A DNA stretch of 64,000 bases, taken from assembly GCA_003054665.1 (NCBI GenBank), contig QAYY01000022.1, positions 1 through 64,000 on the forward strand. The letters are read 5' to 3'. The translations under genes and the position numbers were made by a program. The notes beneath the pieces were generated by a model, which worked only from the letters and a program-made list of their open reading frames with translations, was not told the origin of the DNA and searched no databases. This document shows, one piece after another, positions 6,608 to 60,880 of this stretch; position 1 is the stretch's first letter; every line of letters begins with the position of its first letter. This DNA comes from Opitutaceae bacterium EW11 (GTDB lineage Bacteria > Verrucomicrobiota > Verrucomicrobiia > Opitutales > Opitutaceae).

Positions 6608-9600
6608 ATGCACGCGAGCACGTTGATCGGAGGAGCCGCCCGGCGGCTGTGTAGTGTCGCCGCAATTGCGATTGCGATTGCGAGTGCAGCTGCGGCTCTG
6701 GCCGCAGCGAAACCCACCCCGGAGAGCGCGACCAGCACGACCACTCTTGCGCCCGATGCGGGGCGCATGGTCGTCGATGTGAAAGGTGTGCCTCCGCCTC
6801 CGCCGCTTTTCTATTCCGCGGCGGCGGAGCAGTCGGTGCGGCTCTCTGCCGCGGAGGTCGTGACCGAGGCTCGAGTAAGGCTTCACGTCGTGCAGGGCCG
6901 GCCCGAGCTGTTGACGCTCGGGTTGTCGGGCGAAGGCGAGGTGGTCGGCATCACCGGAGCCGCCCTGAAAGACTGGTCGGTGCGCCAGATCGCGGGAGCG
7001 ACCGGGGGGCGGCTGATCGATCTTCGCCCGCAGTTCGTTACCGGCCAACCCGAGTCGCGTGATTTTGAATACGTGATACTGGTGCGCCGGAACCAACTCG
7101 CGATTCCGGGAAATCTGCCGGTCGCGCTCGTTACGCCGGGCGACGCGGTGGGTTTTGCCTCGCAGATCGCGTTGCGGGCCGACGACGCGATCGACCTCCG
7201 GGTGGTTTCAGCCTCGGGGCTGGTAGCGGTCGGCGAAACCGCGGGTACGCGGGATGTGCAGCGGTATTATGGAACGGGCGACGCGAGGCTCGAGGTGAAG
7301 CTTGCGCGGCGAGGCGCTTCCCAAGCCGACGCGGAGCTGGTGGGCGCCCAACTGGTGGGAAAACTCACCGACGGCGCGAGCAGCGTGGATTTCCATTTGC
7401 GAGGACAACTCCGAGCGCAAAAGGCGGGCGCTCGTTTGCGCGTCCTGTCCGGGCACGCGGCGCTGAGCGAGGGTGCGGCCGGAGACGGCTGGCATGTCGA
7501 GCTTTCTCCGGCGGGCGACGATGGAGCAGGCTACGATCTGGTCAGCGATCGCGCTGGGGTTTTCGCGGTGGACGTCGCGCTCGCGGCGGAGGTCCGGGAG
7601 AATGGCGATTGGCGCCAGCTGGAGTTTTCCATGCCGGCCGGCGCGGTGGTGCCGGTGGTGATCGAAGGCTTGGGCGCAGACGCGACGTTCAAACCGGATT
7701 CGGCCATCGTGCCAGTTGCGGTGGGCGAGACCTGGCAGGGATTCCTCCCCGCTGACGGCGCTGCCTCGCTTGCGTGGCGCAGAACGCGCGAAGCCGGCGA
7801 GGGCACGTTGTTTTTCAGCACGACGGAGCAGACGGAGGTCCGTGTGGGCGTGGGTTTGCTGAGGCAGGCGTCGAGCCTGACGATGCGGGTTCTGCAGGGG
7901 AAACTGTCCGGGCTGCGTTGCCGGTTGGAAGGCCCCGGCGAGATTCTCGGCGTCGACGGCAACAACATCGTGGGCTGGAAACTGGTGCCGGGGCAGGGCG
8001 GACGCTGGCTCGAGGTGCGCTTCAGCCGTCCCGTGGAGACGGAGGGTTCGCTGGTCGTCCGCAGCCAGGCCGAACTCGGCGCGTATCCGGCGCGGGCGGA
8101 GCCGCTGCGGCTGGTTCCCGAGGGAGTCGTGCGCCACTCGGGCTTTCTGCGCGTGGCGAACACCGGAGCAGTGAGGTTGGAGCTGGCGGATGTCTCCGGA
8201 ATGATGCAGCTGGCTCCGGCGCAGTTTCCGGGCGGTCCGATCGATGCGGGCTCGAAACAGGTGTTTGTCTACCGGTTTCCCTCCGCGAGCTATGCGTACC
8301 GTGTACTCGCCAGCCAGATACAGCCCGAGGTCGGCGTTTCCCAGATCGCTCTTTACCAGCTTGGCGAAACCGATCGCGCGATCGCCGCGAGCCTGGAGCT
8401 GGACGTGCGCGAAGCGCCGCTGAAGGACTGGACGATCCAGATTCCCGACGACTACACCGTCGTGTCGGTCGTCGGCGAGCGGGTGGCGGACTACCTGGTG
8501 GAGTCTGTCGCCAACGGCGGCTACCGGGCCCTGAAGGTCATGTTTTCCGAGCCGATCGAGAGCCGGCAGCTGGTTGAGCTGAGACTGGAGAAGAATCAGC
8601 CCGCTGCGGCGGGAGATTGGCAGCTTCGGCCGCTGCGTTTCCCAGGCGCCAAAACGGTGCGCGGGCATGTTGCCGCGGTGTCGACGCCGGGTTACCGAGT
8701 GGCGCCGGCCCGGGTGGATCGTCTCGTCGAGATACCGCTGAGCTTTTTCCCGAATCAGGTCCCGGGACTGCAGCAGGCGTGGCGGTTGCGCGAAGCGGAT
8801 TGGAGCGCCGACGTGAAGATCGAGGCCTTGGGTCAGAGCATTCAGGCCGACGTCTTCCATCTTTATTCGGTCAAGGAAGGCGTCGTCTACGGCAGCGTGC
8901 TCTTGAACTATTTTGTGGTCGGCGCGCCGGCGAGCGAGTGGCGGCTCGAAGTGCCGGCCGGCTTGGGCAACATCGATGTCGTTGGCCAGAACGTGCGGCG
9001 CGACTGGCGGCGAGAGGGGGACCAAGTGGTGGTTTCGCTGCATCAGCCGGTGTTGGGGGCGGCGACTCTTCTCGTGACGTTCCAGCAACCGATGAGCGCG
9101 CGGGGCGGTAGCATCCGTCCGGGCGAAGTCCGCCCGTTGGGTGTGCAGGCGGAACGCGGATTCCTGGAGATCGTTAGTCCGCTTCAGGTGAAGAACGCCG
9201 TGCGCGTTTCCGAAGGTGGCCTCTTGAAACTCGAGCCGGGAGAGCTTCCGGCGGAATTCCGGCTGCTCTCCACGTCGCCGGCTCTGGCCGTCTATCAGTA
9301 CACTGCGCGGCCGTTCAACTTGGAGATGGGGATCGAGTGGTATGCACCCGGCGAGACCGTGGATCAGATCGTCGATTTTGCGAAGCTGACCAGCCAGATC
9401 TCGCGGGATGGCCAGGTGGTGACGGACGTCCAATATTATGTGAAAACTCGCGGTCGGAAGGCGCTGCGGATGGTTCTCCCGCCGGGCGTGAAGCTCTGGG
9501 AGGCGCGTGTCGACAACGAGGTGACGAACGCGCGCGTCGACGGGGAGCAGACGTTGGTCCCGCTCTCGGCGAAGCTGAATCCGAACGAGCCCGTGGCCGT

Positions 9601-43579: not shown

Positions 43580-44080
43580 TCAGGCGGCGGCGGGTTTGGC
43601 CGCGGCGGCGCTATCCTGGACGAGGAGAACGTCGTCGGAGGAGAAGACGGCGTTGATATCGAGGAGGATGATGAACTGGTCGCCGCGTTTGCCCATGCCC
43701 TGGATGAACTCGCTGCGCCAGCGCATGGCGAGGGTGGGAGGCGGATTGATCTGGCTGGGTTCGAGTTCGATGACCTCGTGGACGGAGTCGGCGAGACCGC
43801 CGAGGACGCAGAGTTCGGAGCCGAGCATCAGTTCGAGGACGACGATGCGGGTGTTGACGGTGTCGGCGACGGGAGGGAGGCCGAACTTTTGTCGAAGGTC
43901 GACGACGGGGATGGCGTTGCCGCGGACGTTGACGACACCGCGCATGTAGGCCGGGGCGGTGGGCACCTTGGTGACGTGGGAGAGGTCGAGGACCTCGCGG
44001 ACCTGCGAGACGTTGATCGCGAAGAGCTCCGCCCCGAGGCGGAAGGTCAGGTACTGACCGGGTTCAGTGATGGCATTCAT
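43580..44080 (-). CDS. cheW: CheW coupling protein, cluster A
   Basis: This 166-residue protein is an SH3-like adaptor that links receptors to CheA. It shows the family core [22 protein letters not shown] and [21 protein letters not shown]. It differs from the cluster B copy at only about four residues, and the DNA of the two genes is almost identical at synonymous sites as well. The encoded proteins end in an Ala-rich tail. The gene lies between the receptor and cheR genes. Confidence 0.96.
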
Positions 44081-44104
44081 CGGCTGATACGTGTCGTGCG
44101 CGAC

Positions 44105-45849: not shown

Positions 45850-47880
45850 TTAGGCTGCGGCGTGGGTTAAGGGGGAGGAGTTCAGGGTCGGACGTTCCAG
45901 TTCGATCGCGGCGGTCTGCGCCCGAAGGAGACCGGCGACGTCGAGGATCAGCGCCACGCGGCCGTCGCCCATGATCGTGGCGCCCGAGGCCACTTCGATG
46001 TCCCGGTAGAAGCGCCCGAGGGACTGGATGACGGTCTGGTGTTTCCCGATCACGCGGTCTACCGAAAGGCCGACTCGCTGGCCGTTGTGCGCGACGATCA
46101 CGACTTTCTCCAGGCGTGGGCGGCCGCCCGGGATTTCGAAGAGGTCGCGGAGGCAGATGTACGGGACAAGTTCCCCACGGACGGCGACGGTGTTTTGCGC
46201 GCAAATGCGTCCGTCGCGCTCGGAGGCGATCTCCACGTTCTCCAGCACGGCGGACAGCGGGACGACAAACTGGTCGGAGTTCACTTCGACCAGAAGCCCC
46301 TCGATGATCGCCAGCGTGAGCGGCAGGGTGAGGCGGATGGTCGTGCCGCGACCGCCCGCACTGGAAATCTCGATGGAGCCGCGGAGGGCCTCGAGCTGAC
46401 GTTTCACCACGTCCATGCCGACCCCGCGACCCGACACGCTTGTCACCTCCTTGGCGGTGGAGAAGCCGGGCAGGAAGATGAGGTCGAAGGTGTCTTTCTC
46501 CGAAAGAGTGGTGTTCGGCTCGATGAGTTTTTTCTCGATCGCTTTCTGGCGGACTGCCTGGACATCGATGCCGCGTCCGTCGTCGGCGATCTCGATCACG
46601 ACGTGCGAGCCCTGGTGCGAGGCGGAGAGCCGAACCGTGCCGGTGGCGCTCTTACCCGCTTCCCGGCGCGCATCCGGTGTTTCGATACCGTGGTCGACGC
46701 TGTTGCGGATAAGGTGGACGAGCGGATCTCCGAGTTGATCCAGCACCGTCTTGTCCAGTTCCGTTTCGCCGCCCTCGGTGACGAGGTCGACCTTCTTGTG
46801 GAGCTCGTGGGAAAGATCGTGAACGAGGCGTTTGAAACGTCCGAACGTGGAGCCGATCGGCGTCATGCGAATGCCGAGAACGCTGTCTCGCATCTCCGCC
46901 ACGAGCCGTTCGAGTGCCTCCACTGGCCCGACCAGGTCGGCGGAGTCGATTTTCGCCGAAACCTGGGCGAGGCGGGATTGGTTGATGACGAGCTCGCCCA
47001 CGAGGTTCACCAGACGGTCGAGCTTCTCCGAAGACACGCGCACGATGCCGGTGTTGGCACCGTGCGCGTGCATTTCGGACGGGCGCGCGCTGCCGGCGAC
47101 GACGGGAGCGTCAACCGTCTTCGCCTGAACGGGCGCCGCGTCTGGCGCGCTTTGTGGAGCGACGGGCTGGATCGTGATCACGCTTTCGTCTTCCACAAAA
47201 ATGAATACGTCCCGGATTCGGTTGAGCTCCTGGGCGGTGCTCAGCTCCAGATCCCAAGCGACGTAGCAGCGCTCCGGATCGAGGACGGAAAGGACAGGCA
47301 CGGCCTGGGTGTCGACCGAGACCGAAAGACTTCCAAGCGAGCGCAGCTCGGTGAGAAGAGTGGCGGGGTCGAGACCGGTGGCGGCTATCCCGGGCCCGGG
47401 TTGAAACCGGATGCGGTAGTGTGTCTCCGAGGCGCCGCAGGACCTTGCGGACATCTGCGGCGCGGGAGCGGAATTCTTCGCGACAGTTGAAGCGGAAGAG
47501 TCGGGCAGGAATACCCTCAGCTGATTCTCCAGGTCGTGCGATTTCGCCTCGTGAAGCGGGTCGGCTGCGCCGCGGAACGCGAGCAGGGCCTTGATATGGT
47601 CGCGAGCGGCGAGGACGAGGGCGATCAACGGCGGGGTAACCGTTACGCGTCCGCCACGGACGTGATCGAGCACGGTCTCGACGTGGTGTGAAAACCCGGA
47701 TACGGCCGAAAAGCCGAACATCGCACCCGAGCCCTTGATGGTATGGAAAGCCCGGAAAAGGCGGTGGATGGCCTCGACGTCGTCGGGACGATTTTCCACC
47801 TCGAGGAGTGTGTCCTCGACCTGGTTCAGCAGGTCGTCGGCCTCGACGAGAAACGTTTCTGCTGGATCCGGCGTGTTCAT
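45850..47880 (-). CDS. cheA: CheA histidine kinase, cluster A
   Basis: This 676-residue chemotaxis kinase has an HPt domain with His46 in FHTIKGSG and a CheY/CheB-binding-like middle region (about 170-290). A dimerisation helix pair, an ATPase domain with intact [19 protein letters not shown] and [10 protein letters not shown] motifs, and a C-terminal CheW-like domain ([15 protein letters not shown] onward) follow. It should phosphorylate CheY, CheB and perhaps the separate regulator at 50777. The ATG at 47880 overlaps the cheY stop by ATGA. The open frame upstream of it overlaps cheY and is not used. Confidence 0.95.
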
Positions 47881-48266
47881 GCCTGTGCGGGAACGGCGAT
47901 GCGGCCGAGGACCTTGTTCACCACGGCGACGAGCTGCTCCGGCGTGAAAGGCTTTACGATCCACCCCGTGGCACCGGCGGCGCGGCCTTCCTGCTTTTTC
48001 GCGGGCTCCGATTCGGTCGTCAGCATGAGGATGGGCAGGAATCGGCAGCGCGGGTCGGCCCGGACGCTGCGGATCAGCGTGATGCCGTCCATCACCGGCA
48101 TGTTGAGATCGGTGACGATCAGCTGGATGTCGTGGCGCTTGAGGGTCTCCAGCGCGGCGCTGCCGTCGGGGGCCTCGATCACTTCGCAACCAGCTCGACG
48201 GAGCGTGAGTCCGACCATCTGGCGGATGCTCGGCGAGTCATCGACGGTGAGAACGGTGGGATTCAT
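47877..48266 (-). CDS. cheY: CheY-like response regulator, cluster A
   Basis: This 129-residue single-domain receiver has the acidic pair DD near residue 9, the acceptor Asp in IVTDLNMPVMDG, the Thr in LMLTTESEP and the Lys in IVKPF. It is the probable phosphorylated output signal to the flagellar motor. It sits between the STAS gene (TGATG overlap) and cheA (ATGA overlap). Confidence 0.94.
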   Translation of the reverse strand: MNPTVLTVDDSPSIRQMVGLTLRRAGCEVIEAPDGSAALETLKRHDIQLIVTDLNMPVMDGITLIRSVRADPRCRFLPILMLTTESEPAKKQEGRAAGATGWIVKPFTPEQLVAVVNKVLGRIAVPAQA

Positions 48267-48589: not shown

Positions 48590-50527
48590 TCAAAAGAGTT
48601 CGACGTTGTCGCCAAGCGACGGAGTGCTTTCCGGCGCGGCGACGGAGGGACCGTCGGCGCGTGCAACCGTCGCCGACAGGGTATTTCCGTCTGAAACTTC
48701 GCTGGCCGTCGCGACGACGGCCTCCGGTTCGCCGCCGATCACCGTTGCGTGGATCCGGCGCTCCTCTTCCGTCGTGTAGCGGCGAGAGTGGCGGAAGAGA
48801 CTCGCGGCGAGGTGGCCGTCCACTTCGCCGGCGGCGGGATGGTCCTCGCAGGCGTCCGCTGTCTCGAGCAACGACGTTCTCAACGCTTCCAGCGGAGCGC
48901 TGACCGCGTCTTGGGGGCGAAGGGAGATCCACCGGGATGCCTGCTCGCGAAGTCGCACGCTGCTTCCCTGTAGACGGTCGAGCCCGGCGAGGGCGGAGTC
49001 CCGGTGGATCGAAAGTTGTTCCTCGAGGCGCCGCCCCTCCGTATCCAGGAGCTGGGCACGCGCGGTCGTCGTTGTGTCGGCCTCAAGGCACTCCTGGGCG
49101 AACTCGCGCAGCCGTGCATGCACCTCTTGGAGGTGTTTTGCCACATCGCGGGAAACCTCGCCGATTTCGTCGGAGGCAAGGCACGTCTGCTGTGCGAGCA
49201 CCTCGAGAGAGCCGCCGTTGTCGACGTGTGCGGCTTGGACCTGGGCGTTGATGGCGATGAAACGGATTTCGGTCGCAAGGGTGTCGGTCGTGCCGGCGAT
49301 GGTGCGCGTGAGTTCAGCGAAGGATTTCACGCCCTCGGCCGTGCGGCGGGTTCCGAGATGCGCGGCGGCGGCGAGGGCTCGGAGCTCGGCGATGGTGGCG
49401 GACAACGTCTCGGTGGCGTGGGTCAGACCGGCGCGGAGAGGCTCCGCGTCGCGGCGGGAGCCGAGCGCGGCCTGAAGATCGGTGAGCGATCCGAGAATTC
49501 CGGAGGAACCCTCCCGGAGGTGCGCGTCCGTGGATTCAAAGTCGTCGTTCACACCGTCCAGTTGACTCGCCTGGAGCCGGCATGCCTGGCCGACGCCTCG
49601 CAGCGCTCCGAGCGTATGCGACTGCAGCGCGCGACCGTCGACTAGGTCCTGGAGCGCATGCTGGACGTGCTCCATTTTCTGCCGGGTGATATCCTGATAT
49701 TGGAGGCTCATGACCAGCACGCTGGTGTGCCGATCGACGACGGAGGTGATCTCGTCGACCGCGGACTGTTGCTCGTCGTGCACCCGCTGGCTTCGCTCCA
49801 GTTCGGCCAGTGTGGCTTCGATCGCGTCGCGGCGGGAGCGGGCACGCTCGTGGTGCTGCCCGAGGAGCGAGGTCACGTGCTGCGTGAGATCGGCGATCAC
49901 CTGTTTCACCGTCGCGACGCACTCGAATTCCTTGCCGAAACTGGCCTCGGCCTGGACCTGAAGATCGGCCATGCCCTTGCTCAGGGAGGCGAACACGCTC
50001 TGCACTTCGATGGGGAGCGTGGCGGTCTCCACCTTGAAAAAGATCTCGATCGTGCGAAGGCAGGAGAACGCCCGTTCGAGTTCGGTCCCGCGATGCTGGA
50101 GCCTCTGGATGTGTTCGGCGCAGGCGGTGAGTCCTTCGAGGAGTCGAGCGGTGGAGTCGGCCCATTCATCCACGGCGTCGAGGGATTCCCGAATCAACCG
50201 GATCGCGGCGGGCACCGGCGAGTCGGACGTGAGCCGCCGGAGCGCTGAGGTCTCTTGCTTCAGTTCGTCCGTGATCCGGACCGTGGCCTCGAGCTGTGCA
50301 CCGATCTGAGTGAACTCCTGCTCGACCAGCGCCGCCAGTTCGGCGAGCGCACCGTGCTTCTTCTCGAGCGACTTCAAATGCCGTCGCACTGAACGCCGTG
50401 CGCTCCAGGCACTGGGCGACAGTGCCTCGCCGCGGATCCAGCTTCCGAGCGGGGCGGCGGAGTGCGGCAGGATGCGAAGGGTTCGCACCAGGCGGCGCTT
50501 GAGGAAAGTTGTGGGGTCGATGCTCAA
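48590..50527 (-). CDS. Cytoplasmic receptor-like coiled-coil protein with CheZ-like motif, cluster A
   Basis: This 645-residue protein is mostly alpha-helical and has no membrane helix. YQDITRQKMEHV (Asp279, Gln283) matches the FQD-x-x-x-Q pattern of the CheZ phosphatase active helix. IAINAQVQAAHVDNGGSLEVLA near 425-450 resembles a degenerate MCP hairpin tip. The chain ends in LGDNVELF, an acidic-hydrophobic tail reminiscent of the CheY-binding end of CheZ. All these are shared with the paralogue at 58771. The start is taken as a TTG at 50527, because the open frame further up runs through the leader terminator, and the paralogue has a TTG at the equivalent place. A role as CheY-P phosphatase or signalling scaffold is inference. 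Confidence 0.75.
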   Translation of the reverse strand: MSIDPTTFLKRRLVRTLRILPHSAAPLGSWIRGEALSPSAWSARRSVRRHLKSLEKKHGALAELAALVEQEFTQIGAQLEATVRITDELKQETSALRRLTSDSPVPAAIRLIRESLDAVDEWADSTARLLEGLTACAEHIQRLQHRGTELERAFSCLRTIEIFFKVETATLPIEVQSVFASLSKGMADLQVQAEASFGKEFECVATVKQVIADLTQHVTSLLGQHHERARSRRDAIEATLAELERSQRVHDEQQSAVDEITSVVDRHTSVLVMSLQYQDITRQKMEHVQHALQDLVDGRALQSHTLGALRGVGQACRLQASQLDGVNDDFESTDAHLREGSSGILGSLTDLQAALGSRRDAEPLRAGLTHATETLSATIAELRALAAAAHLGTRRTAEGVKSFAELTRTIAGTTDTLATEIRFIAINAQVQAAHVDNGGSLEVLAQQTCLASDEIGEVSRDVAKHLQEVHARLREFAQECLEADTTTTARAQLLDTEGRRLEEQLSIHRDSALAGLDRLQGSSVRLREQASRWISLRPQDAVSAPLEALRTSLLETADACEDHPAAGEVDGHLAASLFRHSRRYTTEEERRIHATVIGGEPEAVVATASEVSDGNTLSATVARADGPSVAAPESTPSLGDNVELF

Positions 50528-50531
50528 ATTC

Positions 50532-50592
50532 GGGAAAACAAAAAGGCACAGCCCATGAGCGACTCTTGTCGCAGACATGTGCTGTGCCTTTT
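50532..50592 (-). terminator. Leader terminator/attenuator, cluster A
   Basis: AAAAGGCACAGC and GCTGTGCCTTTT form a 12-bp stem with an extended inner helix (CATG and GCGAC/GTCGC segments), followed on the minus strand by TTTTTGTTTT. It ends only a few bases before the TTG start of the receptor-like gene, so it must be read through for that gene to be expressed from the sigma-28 promoter. Confidence 0.85.
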
Positions 50593-50650
50593 GCCAGTGG
50601 GCCCAGAGTCCCACTGAAAAATGCTGCCCCCACCGAGTGGGAGTCTGCCT
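50593..50650 (-). promoter_or_regulatory. Structured leader between promoter and attenuator, cluster A
   Basis: The transcript has hairpin P1 CUCCCAC-UCG-GUGGGGG (50627-50643) and hairpin P2 CAGUGGG..CCCACUG (50595-50616). P2 can extend by pairing the upstream U-run with the AAAA of AAAAGGC, which would open the terminator stem. P1 and P2 share the CCCAC/GUGGG sequence and could exchange partners. About 36 bases including P2 and the terminator's 5' arm are almost identical in cluster B. Confidence 0.65.
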
Positions 50651-50776: not shown

Positions 50777-51526
50777 CTACTGGTCGCCGTTTCCGCTCTC
50801 CTGGAGGCTGAGGAGGGTCTCCAGGCGTTCCCGCAGTTGCCCGAGCTCCTTCGACTTGAACGTGCGTTTGGTGGCTTCGAGCACCGAAATCGTTTCCCGC
50901 ACCGCTTTTTCGAGTTCGAACGACCGGAGATTGCTCACGCCGCCGGGAGAGGCCGCCAACACCGCAACCACCTCCCCGACGTCGTGCAGCGACGAGGTGA
51001 GGTTTTGGAGCGAGAGTTCGATGAAGGCGTGGGCCGCCGGAATGTCGGTGGCATTGCGCTGGCCGGAAAGGAGCGAGGTGAGTTTCTCGAGGTCGCGCAT
51101 CCACTCCTTAAGCCGGGAGAGACTGTGCTCCACGGCCTTGCGCGCCTCGTACTGCCCGAGCGATTGCTGGATCGTGAGCAGCAACTGTTCCGCTTCCGGA
51201 GGCTTCACCAGGTAGGCGGTGGCGAGGCTGAAGGACTGGATGGCCGTATCGAGCGTGGGAAAAGCGGTGAGCAGAATCACCGGAAGACCCGGGTACAGGC
51301 GGTTTATGTCGCGGAGGAACCGGAGGTTCTCGTTGCCCGGCATCTGGATGTCGGAAATCACGAGCGAGATGTCACCGGCTTCGAGCTGCTGCAGTCCCTG
51401 CTCGGCGGATTCCCCCTCGACCGGTTCGAAGCCCGCTGCGCGGAGGAGGCTTCCGCAGGTGTTGCGGATCATGGGCTCGTCGTCGACGACGAGGATCTTC
51501 AGCTTCCGTTCGGCCTGGGGTGTCAT
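50777..51526 (-). CDS. Response regulator with unfamiliar C-terminal domain, cluster A
   Basis: This 249-residue protein has an N-terminal receiver (about 8-125) with VVDDEP, the acceptor Asp in LVISDIQMPG, and Lys in LVKPP. The remaining 120 residues are helical, not a recognised DNA-binding or enzymatic output domain. They contain a conserved C-terminal block LEATKRTFKSKELGQLRERLETLL and the block RSFELEKAVRETISVLEA. The paralogue at 60941 shares the layout. It is encoded upstream of the sigma-28 promoter, so it can be transcribed separately from the rest of the cluster. Function is unknown. Confidence 0.85.
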   Translation of the reverse strand: MTPQAERKLKILVVDDEPMIRNTCGSLLRAAGFEPVEGESAEQGLQQLEAGDISLVISDIQMPGNENLRFLRDINRLYPGLPVILLTAFPTLDTAIQSFSLATAYLVKPPEAEQLLLTIQQSLGQYEARKAVEHSLSRLKEWMRDLEKLTSLLSGQRNATDIPAAHAFIELSLQNLTSSLHDVGEVVAVLAASPGGVSNLRSFELEKAVRETISVLEATKRTFKSKELGQLRERLETLLSLQESGNGDQ

Positions 51527-53788: not shown

Positions 53789-54289
53789 TCAGGCGGCGGC
53801 GGGTTTTGCGGCGGCGGCGGTATCCTGGACGAGGAGGATGTCGTCGGAGGAGAAGACGGCGTTGATATCGAGGAGGATGATGAACTGGTCGCCGCGTTTG
53901 CCCATGCCCTGGATGAACTCGCTGCGCCAGCGCATGGCGAGGGTGGGGGGCGGATTTATCTGGGAGGGTTCGAGTTCGATGACCTCGTGGACGGAGTCGG
54001 CGAGACCGCCGAGGACGCAGAGCTCGGAGCCGAGCATCAGTTCGAGGACGACGATGCGGGTGTTGACGGTGTCGGCAGTGGCCGGGAGGCCGAACTTTTG
54101 TCGAAGGTCGACGACGGGGATGGCGTTGCCGCGGACGTTGACGACGCCGCGCATGTAGGCCGGAGCGGTGGGCACCTTGGTGACGTGGGAGAGATCGAGG
54201 ACCTCGCGGACCTGCGAGACGTTGATCGCGAAGAGCTCCGCCCCGAGGCGGAAGGTCAGGTACTGACCGGGTTCAGTGATGGCATTCAT
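53789..54289 (-). CDS. cheW: CheW coupling protein, cluster B
   Basis: This 166-residue SH3-like coupling protein is nearly identical to the cluster A CheW. The visible changes are PPV to PAT, one Val to Ile and one Ser to Thr. The ATG at 54289 is chosen to match cluster A, although the frame is open for nine more codons. Because the products are almost interchangeable, the receptors and kinases of both clusters may form mixed arrays. Confidence 0.96.
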   Translation of the reverse strand: MNAITEPGQYLTFRLGAELFAINVSQVREVLDLSHVTKVPTAPAYMRGVVNVRGNAIPVVDLRQKFGLPATADTVNTRIVVLELMLGSELCVLGGLADSVHEVIELEPSQINPPPTLAMRWRSEFIQGMGKRGDQFIILLDINAVFSSDDILLVQDTAAAAKPAAA

Positions 54290-54312
54290 CGGCTGAGGGT
54301 GTCGTGCGCGAC

Positions 54313-58770: not shown

Positions 58771-60717
58771 CTAGAAAAGTTCGACGTTTTCGCCCAGCGC
58801 CTCCGCCGGTGCCGTGGCCCGCGCGTCAGAGACGAGAGCTGCGTTCGGCGCGATGGTCTGGGACGGGGCATCGAGGGAAAGCGTTGCCGCCGAGACATCG
58901 GGGCGGGGGAGTCCGGCCACCCGCCGGTGGATTCGGCGCTCCTCTTCGCTCGTGTAGCGATGGGCGTGGTCGGCGAGCGAGTCTTCCGGGACCTGCGAGT
59001 TGTCGCGGACGAGACCGTCGCGCTCGCACTCAGCGGCATATTCCACGAGGAGCGCCCGAAGCCTTGCGAGCGACCCGGTCGCCGTTGGGGCGTGGTACTC
59101 TCCCTGCCAAGCGTGGGCGTGTTCCGTGAGTGTCGAACTCGTTTGGCGGAGTGCGTCGATCGCCTCGATGGCAGTTTCTCGCTGGGCCCGAAGCTGGCCG
59201 GGGAGCCGGAGAGTCTGAACTTCGAGCAGACCCCGCCGCTCCTCCGTCGCGCGCTGGAACTCGCCGCATTGCTCGGAGATCTGCCGGAGCTGGCCGTTCA
59301 CCTGGGCGACGTCCCCGCTGACGGACTGCGAGAGCTCTCCGACGTGGATCGCGATCCGAGAAGTTTCCTGCGCAAGCACCTCGAGGGACCGTCCGTTGGC
59401 GACGAGCGCGGCCTGGACCTGTGTGTTGAGGGCGATCAAGTGAATGTCCATTGCCAGCGAGCCCGCGCGGCTGGCGACGTTGTCGGCGAGCTGTGAGAAG
59501 GATCCCACGGCCTCGACTGCGGATCGCGCAGCGGCGTCGGCTGCGGAAACGAGTTCACGAAGCCGCTCGAGCAACCCGAGGAGCGTCGAAGCGGTTTCGT
59601 CGAGGGCATCGACGACGCCGTTGCGCGCGTCGTTCTCCAGCACGGTCTCGAGCCCGCGCAGTTCCGCCAGAATGGCCTCGGCACCGGACCGCAGTCCGTC
59701 GTTGGCCTGCTCGAGATTGTCGATGATGCCAGTCAGCTGTTCGGCTTCGAGGCGCGCCGTCTGCTCGGCTTTCGGCGAGCTGGTGGGGAGCTCGGAGGCC
59801 GAGGACTCCGACGAATCGAGCGTCTCCAGGGCCGCCTGAACGTGCTCCATTTTCTGGCGCGTGATATCCTGAAACTGGAGACAAAGGACGAGGGGCGCGG
59901 TTTGGTTGCCGATCGCCTCCGTTGCCGCCTGAAACGCGCGCTGCTGGTCCAGCTGCCGGCTCTGCACCGCGCTCAGCCGATGCAGTGCCTCCTCGATTTC
60001 CGTCCGGCTCGAGTCGGTTTTCTCGCGCTGCTGGCCGACGACCCGGGCCCATTCCTCGGACAAAAGCGAAAGCGTGCGCCGCGTCGCGGCCAATCTCTCG
60101 AATTCCTGGCCGAAGCCAGTCTCCACCAGCACCTGCAGGTTGGCCATTCCGGCGGTGAGCGTGAGGAAAACGCCCCGCGCTTCCGGCGGCAGCGACGCGG
60201 ACTCCACCCGGAAGAACACCTCGATGCTTCGCAAGCTGGAGAAGCCCCGCTCGAGTTCCGCGGCCTGGTTTTGCAGACGCGCGATCTCCGTCTCGCAGCT
60301 CCGGACGCCCTCCAGGATCTGTTCGCTGTGCCGCACGCTTCGTTCGACGAATTCAAGCGATTCGCGAACCAGCCGCGTCGCGTTATCCACTGGATTGTCG
60401 GCGCCGCCGAATACGTCGGCCAGCCGCCGGCCGGAATCGACCAGGCGGGCGCAACCGGTCGAGGTCGCTTCGAGGCGGTCGCCAATTCCGAGAAATGTCC
60501 GCTCGATCTCGCGTGCCACCGCGGGAAGGTCCTGCCGCAACGCGGCGATTTCACGGTTGAGTTCGACGAGCCGCGTTGCGGGCGCGGTATTACTGCCGTC
60601 GCGGGATAGGCCGCGTCCGCCGCGAAACCGACGGGGGAGAGTGGTCAACACGTCCCGGATCCGCCGCTCGGCGGCGCGGAGAAGTGTCGGACGTGGAGTT
60701 GGAGCGGTGCGTCGCAA
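58771..60717 (-). CDS. Cytoplasmic receptor-like coiled-coil protein with CheZ-like motif, cluster B
   Basis: This 648-residue paralogue of the product at 48590 is much more diverged than the other cluster pairs. FQDITRQKMEHV (Asp284, Gln288), the hairpin-like LIALNTQVQAALVANGRSLEVL, the RYTSEEERRIH block and the tail LGENVELF are conserved. No membrane helix is seen. The TTG at 60717 is taken as start, directly after the leader terminator; the same context (TTTTCC.AA.TTG) occurs in cluster A. Conservation concentrated in the DxxxQ helix, the hairpin and the tail suggests these are the functional parts. Confidence 0.75.
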   Translation of the reverse strand: MRRTAPTPRPTLLRAAERRIRDVLTTLPRRFRGGRGLSRDGSNTAPATRLVELNREIAALRQDLPAVAREIERTFLGIGDRLEATSTGCARLVDSGRRLADVFGGADNPVDNATRLVRESLEFVERSVRHSEQILEGVRSCETEIARLQNQAAELERGFSSLRSIEVFFRVESASLPPEARGVFLTLTAGMANLQVLVETGFGQEFERLAATRRTLSLLSEEWARVVGQQREKTDSSRTEIEEALHRLSAVQSRQLDQQRAFQAATEAIGNQTAPLVLCLQFQDITRQKMEHVQAALETLDSSESSASELPTSSPKAEQTARLEAEQLTGIIDNLEQANDGLRSGAEAILAELRGLETVLENDARNGVVDALDETASTLLGLLERLRELVSAADAAARSAVEAVGSFSQLADNVASRAGSLAMDIHLIALNTQVQAALVANGRSLEVLAQETSRIAIHVGELSQSVSGDVAQVNGQLRQISEQCGEFQRATEERRGLLEVQTLRLPGQLRAQRETAIEAIDALRQTSSTLTEHAHAWQGEYHAPTATGSLARLRALLVEYAAECERDGLVRDNSQVPEDSLADHAHRYTSEEERRIHRRVAGLPRPDVSAATLSLDAPSQTIAPNAALVSDARATAPAEALGENVELF

Positions 60718-60721
60718 GTTT

Positions 60722-60780
60722 GGAAAACGAAAAAGGCACAGCTCCTCGGAAACGTGCGTATCCGACGTGCTGTGCCTTTT
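60722..60780 (-). terminator. Leader terminator/attenuator, cluster B
   Basis: The same AAAAGGCACAGC/GCTGTGCCTTTT stem as in cluster A carries a different inner helix (CGGA..TCCG) and is followed on the minus strand by TTTTTCGTTTT. It ends a few bases before the TTG start. The conserved stem with a variable apical part argues for a selected structure. Confidence 0.85.
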
Positions 60781-60850
60781 GCCAGTGGGCCCAAAGTCCC
60801 ACCATAAAAAGCTACCCCCCACCCGGTGGAGAGCCTGCCTGCCTGGCTTG
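60781..60850 (-). promoter_or_regulatory. Structured leader between promoter and attenuator, cluster B
   Basis: P1 is CUCUCCAC-CGG-GUGGGGGG (60815-60833). P2 is UGGUGGG..CCCACUG (60783-60804), where changes relative to cluster A keep pairing through G-U. The U-run before P2 can again pair with the AAAAG of the terminator arm. In this copy the conserved block is out of frame with the gene, so conservation is at the nucleic acid level. Confidence 0.65.
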
Positions 60851-60852
60851 TC

Positions 60853-60880
60853 TTAACGGCTCTGCCGTCCGCGGGCTTTA
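60853..60880 (-). promoter_or_regulatory. Sigma-28 (FliA-type) promoter, cluster B
   Basis: TAAAG (60876-60880) and GCCGTTAA (60853-60860) on the minus strand are separated by 15 bases. This is the same pair of elements as in cluster A, with one extra spacer base. Confidence 0.75.

Follow-up and report, generated by a model that had tools for sequence, protein, structure and literature searches.

A leader RNA inside a chemotaxis gene cluster (leader A, reverse strand of positions 50535–50650 of the window, that is, of the whole 64,000-nt stretch analyzed) is, judging by sequence comparison and folding, probably a member of a new family of cis-acting RNAs, in which a transcription attenuator is joined to a sigma-28-type promoter. 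Alignment of the relatives shows that the promoter, two hairpins (P1 and P2), an intrinsic terminator, and a strand preceding P2 and complementary to the 5' arm of the terminator are conserved. Devices of this type, transcription attenuators, are known; the family is classed as new, and its coupling to a sigma-28-type promoter as unusual. The control of sigma-28 genes is commonly placed at the step of initiation; the conserved RNA appears to add a post-initiation checkpoint common to chemoreceptor, CheY/CheW, and porin genes. The features of leader A and of its paralogue, leader B (60723–60840, reverse strand), are collected in Table 1.

Table 1. Features of leaders A and B and of the adjacent genes, in window coordinates.
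Feature	Position	Strand	Remark
Leader A, sigma-28-type promoter, TAAAG-N14-GCCGTTAA	50654..50680	-	sole exact match of the N14 pattern in the window
Leader A, P1 hairpin, 7 bp, UCG loop	50627..50643	-	
Leader A, P3 5' strand GCAUUUUU, antiterminator strand	50617..50624	-	pairs with 50586-50592 in the truncated fold
Leader A, U-run	50617-50621	-	read from sequence
Leader A, P2 hairpin, 7 bp, 8-nt loop	50595..50616	-	
Leader A, AAAAGGC, both P3 3' strand and terminator 5' arm	50586..50592	-	
Leader A, intrinsic terminator and U-tract	50535..50592	-	
TTG after the leader A terminator	50525-50527	-	sequence
P0001 open frame, receptor-like, all-helical	48590..50614	-	probable start at or after the TTG at 50527
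CheA-type kinase, downstream in cluster A	45850..48189	-	
Response regulator gene adjoining leader A upstream	50777..51526	-	
Leader B, sigma-28-type promoter, TAAAG-N15-GCCGTTAA	60853..60880	-	
Leader B: P1, P3, P2, terminator	60723..60840	-	same RNA family as leader A
P0002 open frame downstream of leader B	58771..60822	-	paralogue of P0001

The earlier note had described leader A as a sigma-28-type promoter followed by P1, P2, and a terminator that ends before a TTG codon, and both the sequence and the folding agree with this description. For the 126-nt RNA, the folding energy is –60.8 kcal/mol (z = –5.16), and none of 200 shuffled sequences is equally stable. The promoter matches the pattern exactly; with up to two mismatches allowed, two matches are observed in the window against 1.46 expected, so that only the exact N14 match is informative. 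As the response regulator gene adjoins the leader upstream, leader A lies inside the cluster. The P0001 frame extends back into the leader as far as a GTG at 50614, its residues 1–35 and 45–63 being modeled with low confidence. The P0001 protein is predicted to be all-helical (structure model, pLDDT 76.1) and has no Pfam match. In 14 aligned members of its family, residues Q305, D308, and Q312 are kept within the motif LQxQDIxRQK, which in our view resembles the CheZ phosphatase motif. Both P0001 and P0002 carry QDIxRQK and terminate in NVELF, which resembles a docking tail.

A paralogous chemotaxis cluster, 10.2 kb from cluster A, has the same promoter–leader arrangement at 60880–60715. The promoter of leader B has spacing 15 and hence was missed by the N14 pattern scan; for the leader B RNA, z = –4.45. 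In their own genome, no good copy besides leaders A and B is found, either by DNA search or by the covariance model R2 described below (two matches). The two clusters share 88 bases at 100% identity (44000–44087 and 54209–54296) and 300 bases at 93%, against 70–81% in the remaining long repeats, which suggests gene conversion between the clusters.

A plain DNA search with the leader in 57 genomes yielded, beyond the own genome, only six short matches of 21–30 bases (E 0.017–0.093). Relatives of P0001 are present in 30 of 200 genomes of the bacterial family, the own genome counted, and reading upstream of 27 of these relatives revealed two leaders (L016 and L017, later L113 and L114) with the same plan in different letters. 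A covariance model (R1) built from leader B and these two leaders, with leader A held out, recovers leader A at 70.1 bits (E 7e-22). As A and B are paralogues, matches in the wider family weigh more than this recovery. A plasmid search with P0001 gave no match, and a contig scan with it gave one distant protein locus (L045), at which no R1 match is found up to E 10.

At E up to 0.1, R1 matches, weak ones included, are found in 44 of 252 family genomes. From the 48 matches, three opposite-strand mirrors and ten low-scoring matches (L105–L112, L115, L116), plain terminators by eye, were dropped, and L103 was also kept out; the resulting alignment A5 (34 rows) served as the source of the full-length model R2, which regained the absent L103 at 59.1 bits. 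R2 identifies 47 elements scoring from 112.7 to 29.7 bits in 29 of the 252 family genomes and 15 of 49 genera. This set was obtained from 62 matches by dropping 15, namely 13 opposite-strand mirrors and two matches outside the family (L159 and L160, 27.3 and 24.5 bits), and the count excludes family matches below 29.7 bits (mirrors and weak places). At a laxer E of up to 0.01, R2 matches, again including weak ones, are found in 60 of 252 family genomes. An aptamer-only model (R3) adds two elements, L196 and L197, giving 49 in total; two R2 matches in the family that had fallen under the 29.7-bit limit (24.5 and 23.8 bits) were raised again by R3. Outside the family, the best R2 score is 27.3 bits in 372 genomes of the order and 26.7 bits in 288 genomes of the phylum (family members included in both samples), and in our sample the RNA thus seems restricted to a single bacterial family.

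The pairing of P1, P2, and the terminator, whose lack of conservation in related genomes the earlier note had named as refuting its proposal, is conserved in the relatives with covariation. In the 34 rows of A5, 90.9% of cells pair, with 98 two-sided cells compared to 29.1 after shuffling (none of 500 shuffles as high), and the covariation score is 0.402, compared to 0.204 in shuffled and at most 0.130 in slid controls. Two-sided changes are observed at all nine consensus P1 pairs, none of the nine terminator pairs is missing from more than two of the 34 rows, and RNAalifold, unaided, recovers the same three helices.

The earlier note had also suggested that the U-run before P2 competes for the AAAA of the terminator 5' arm. 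A competing antiterminator, P3, is indeed seen, with the pairing corrected to GCNUUUU/AAAAGGC, reaching the GC-rich 5' arm of the terminator. In the family consensus, GCUUUC, located before P2 in most leaders, is complementary to GAAGGC of the terminator 5' arm; the particular variants are GCAUUUU/AAAAGGC with one mismatch in leader A, GCUUUUU/AAAAGGC in leader B, GCUUUU/AAAAGGC in L103, and GCCUU/AAGGC in both L094 and L096. For P3 taken alone, 90.2% of the cells in the 34 rows are paired, and neither the number of paired cells (38/500) nor the score (127/500) clearly exceeds the shuffles. With 47 rows, 85.3% of P3 cells pair vs. 82.5% in shuffles (3/500), and the score is 0.201 vs. 0.165 (9/500), slid controls giving at most 0.145; two measures out of five do not rise above the shuffles (373/500 and 370/500), and a one-column slide yields 12 two-sided cells vs. 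8 in the true register. As P3 is nearly invariant, its covariation is modest, which counts against the attenuator reading.

Apart from the helices, an AG preceding P1 is conserved, and in alignment A8 conserved unpaired positions (0.73 to 1.0 weighted) are observed near P3 and P2 (C45, G46, A69, G70) and in the P2 loop (A53, G60–G62). An extension of P1 sequestering the P3 5' strand was considered and rejected (1.26 expected pairs vs. 1.40 with a shuffled 5' flank). The strand swap between P1 and P2 via shared CCCAC/GUGGG, also proposed in the earlier note, did not stand: a complementary run of at least six is found in only two of 47 relatives, so the swap is local rather than conserved.

The sigma-28-type (FliA) promoter, TAAAG / GCCGATAA, accompanies most members of the family. 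In a scan of 78 bases around the element start, matches to TAAA-N14..16-GCCGATAA in at least 9 of 12 positions were found at 37 of 47 elements; among 1410 windows drawn at random from the loci of the elements, the share is 3.8%. All 37 promoters are localized 1–14 nt before the element, the spacing is 15 in 26 of them, and the fifth base of the –35 box, which was not scored, is G in 30. A FliA protein above the TIGR02479 cut-off is encoded in the own genome and in 23 of 29 genomes carrying the element, vs. 114 of 223 non-carriers (Fisher p 0.005, uncorrected for kinship). In six of the 29 carriers no FliA reaches the curated cut-off, which counts against the attenuator reading and against a strict FliA rule; one of the six, G149 (L082), is 99% complete and retains both the element and a GCCGATAA promoter.

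The genes behind the elements are of few kinds, 45 of 49 elements being upstream of a gene on the same strand. These are 17 chemoreceptors (one, at L148, a fragment), four members of the receptor-like P0001 family, six CheY-type proteins (one, at L156, seen by its first residues only), one CheW, one STAS protein, 15 outer-membrane channel proteins, and one carbonic anhydrase; the remaining four elements have no such gene or reach the contig end. Downstream frames were picked by length and third-position GC, so the exact starts are approximate. The channels belong to the Pfam families OprB (3), Porin_O_P (4), Alginate_exp (1), Phenol_MetA_deg (2), and OEP (1), with a weak Porin_4 match below the cut-off at L155 (E 0.0043) and no Pfam match at L088, L147, and L153. 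The last two are 53% and 60% identical to the first, whose low-confidence model (pLDDT 52.7) has 16 strands and finds general porins as its best structural matches (E 8e-15). The setting extends beyond the chemotaxis operon proposed in the earlier note, as porin genes also carry the element.

In one genome (G228) we observe six elements: three lie before chemoreceptors, and one each before an OprB porin, a Porin_O_P protein, and an OEP protein. At L091, two elements, 7940–8063 and 8684–8800, are 744 bases apart and precede a CheW and a carbonic anhydrase gene, respectively. Two strong elements, L083:5043-5160 (75.1 bits) and L089:4973-5092 (98.5 bits), have no close gene on the same strand and are candidates for free-standing RNAs; these 2 of 49 count against the attenuator reading.

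The switch behavior was assessed by folding truncated RNAs that end after the terminator 5' arm, for which 45 of 47 rows were scorable (all except L154 and L156). In the truncated transcripts, the mean P3 pair probability is 0.69, exceeding 0.3 in 36 of 45 leaders (0.56 in leader A, 0.96 in leader B); the nine leaders below 0.3 count against the attenuator reading. In the full-length RNA the mean drops to 0.03, P3 being lost in 44 of 45 leaders and kept only by L103. When the letters of the P1–P2 linker are shuffled, the truncated P3 falls to 0.066, the observed value exceeding the control in 40 of 45 leaders. In the 44 full-length leaders in which P3 was locked, the median penalty is 7.8 kcal/mol (range 0 to 19.4), so the terminator is predicted to win without help. 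In the folding model, this is the pattern expected of a metastable antiterminator needing help to persist. By folding and comparison, 36 of 45 leaders thus combine a 5' leader terminator with a mutually exclusive antiterminator.

Three leaders retain the P3 strands without the terminator. In L154 and L156, the promoter, P1, P2, and the P3 strands are present and a CheY-type start follows directly; in L156 only the first CheY-type residues are visible, followed by a stop near the contig end. L197, one of the R3 finds, precedes a 4HB chemoreceptor and has P3 of the form GCCCUU/GAGGGC, with no terminator starting there by eye; L196, the other R3 find, reaches the contig end. The P3 strands therefore are not a mere by-product of the terminator. 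In the truncated fold of L156, UUUUC pairs with GAAAA around P2, while P3 is absent from that of L154, which counts against the attenuator reading. Both leaders (L154:5085-5186 and L156:80-181) contain ACCUCC between P3 and the start codon, presumably the letters of the 16S anti-Shine–Dalgarno end.

These data support the earlier proposal of a riboswitch-like or protein-controlled attenuator, and a possible course of events is as follows. After initiation, the RNA would fold P1, P2, and then P3, which closes around P2 and would act as an antiterminator. Unless P3 is held, the terminator hairpin would invade via the common strand and transcription would stop after approximately 105–115 nt, making OFF the default state. 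A small molecule or protein that stabilizes P1/P3/P2 would let the polymerase pass, with the expression of a chemoreceptor, CheY/CheW, or porin; both the signal and the direction, in which binding means ON, are our inferences. Initiation (sigma-28, the motile cell) and elongation (the putative signal) would then form an AND gate. We tentatively consider that P1/P3/P2 may be an orphan riboswitch class for a small signaling molecule or nutrient metabolite, gating chemoreceptors and outer-membrane pores in swimmers, although we would sooner doubt this specific assignment than assert it. If it is true, sensing and uptake during foraging would be gated together by one RNA-read signal.

The element might instead be a trans-acting, sigma-28-dependent sRNA of approximately 110 nt, whose position ahead of genes would reflect common promoters or read-through of an sRNA gene. 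The earlier note had offered a small RNA of about 115 nt as an alternative, and such an RNA would have its own promoter and a strong terminator, as here; elements without a close same-strand gene (L083, L089) and the known sigma-28-dependent sRNAs of Escherichia coli (described in PMC10578931) point the same way. The alternative is weakened by the 45 of 49 elements preceding same-strand genes of few kinds, by the six copies in G228, every one before a gene, by the copies that have no terminator at P3, and by the conserved strand that complements the element's own terminator, and we regard it as unlikely.

A constitutive leader, whose hairpins and partial terminator serve only to fix the level of expression or to shield the RNA, without any switching, would fit the modest covariation of P3 and the advantage of the terminator fold (again the median of 7.8 kcal/mol), but leaves the linker strand conserved though unneeded for P1, P2, and the terminator; given, moreover, that shuffling of the linker abolishes P3 (from 0.69 to 0.066) and that the P1/P3/P2 strands persist where the terminator is missing, this seems rather improbable. 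We find it very hard to credit that the target of the domain is translation or RNA decay and not termination, the terminator being secondary: L154, L156, and L197 do precede chemotaxis genes with no terminator at P3, but the nine terminator pairs are almost universal, the terminator 5' arm is itself a P3 strand, and the consensus includes neither a start codon nor a ribosome-binding site. If the attenuator reading is true, the element is an orphan regulatory RNA whose regulon is coherent and whose signal can be sought with a clear test set of 49 leaders, including the terminator-less variants; it would also suggest RNA co-regulation of chemotaxis and outer-membrane uptake in this bacterial family.

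Comparison with Rfam 15 at the gathering threshold identified only two tRNAs in the window. All scores of leader A alone and of L077 alone are far below gathering, and nothing matches the element at 12 relative loci. Accordingly, no Rfam family comes near the threshold, in line with the earlier observation that leader A does not match the c-di-GMP-I aptamer. The motifs of the 2017 survey of 224 candidate RNAs are reportedly in Rfam. Among the papers listed in the literature search, judged by title and opening of the abstract, no publication deals with this RNA element, and PMC11109978 and PMC2864571 contain no mention of Opitut-, Verrucomicro-, chemotaxis, porin, or methyl-accepting.

Riboswitches for c-di-GMP precede early flagellar genes in Clostridioides difficile and have a known c-di-GMP aptamer; the one in the flgB leader is said to work by termination. 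They are similar to our element as leader RNAs gating motility genes, but here no Rfam c-di-GMP match is found.

The leaders recognized by ANTAR proteins, as described in PMC3369931, also have two hairpins before an intrinsic terminator and an antiterminator competing with it. Their hairpins have hexanucleotide loops with A at position 1 and G at position 4, and the second hairpin overlaps the terminator, whereas here P1 has mostly 3-nt and P2 7–10-nt loops (A8, by eye), and the terminator is overlapped by a separate helix, P3. By inspection of A5 and A8, the P1 and P2 loops lack the A1/G4 hexaloop of this description, and ANTAR leaders were rejected as candidates. The ANTAR domain (PF03861) is present in one of 29 carriers and none of 30 hand-chosen non-carriers, and absent from the own genome, so ANTAR proteins cannot be the general regulator.

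The E. coli RNAs UhpU, MotR, FliX, and FlgO are likewise short and sigma-28-dependent; they differ from our element in being described as trans-acting, Hfq-bound, and UTR-derived (PMC10578931). The nearest analogue in setting is merRNA of Bdellovibrio (PMC3627812), a riboswitch-type RNA in a swimming-phase transcriptome: it is an RNA of 445 nt from the FliA-governed attack phase and contains a c-di-GMP riboswitch. In that paper, merRNA has no conserved downstream gene and is not marked with a FliA promoter in the table, whereas our element is approximately 110 nt long, is followed directly by genes, and has no Rfam c-di-GMP match. The Bdellovibrio FliA consensus reported there, TTAAG-N16-CCGATA, is close to the promoter observed here.
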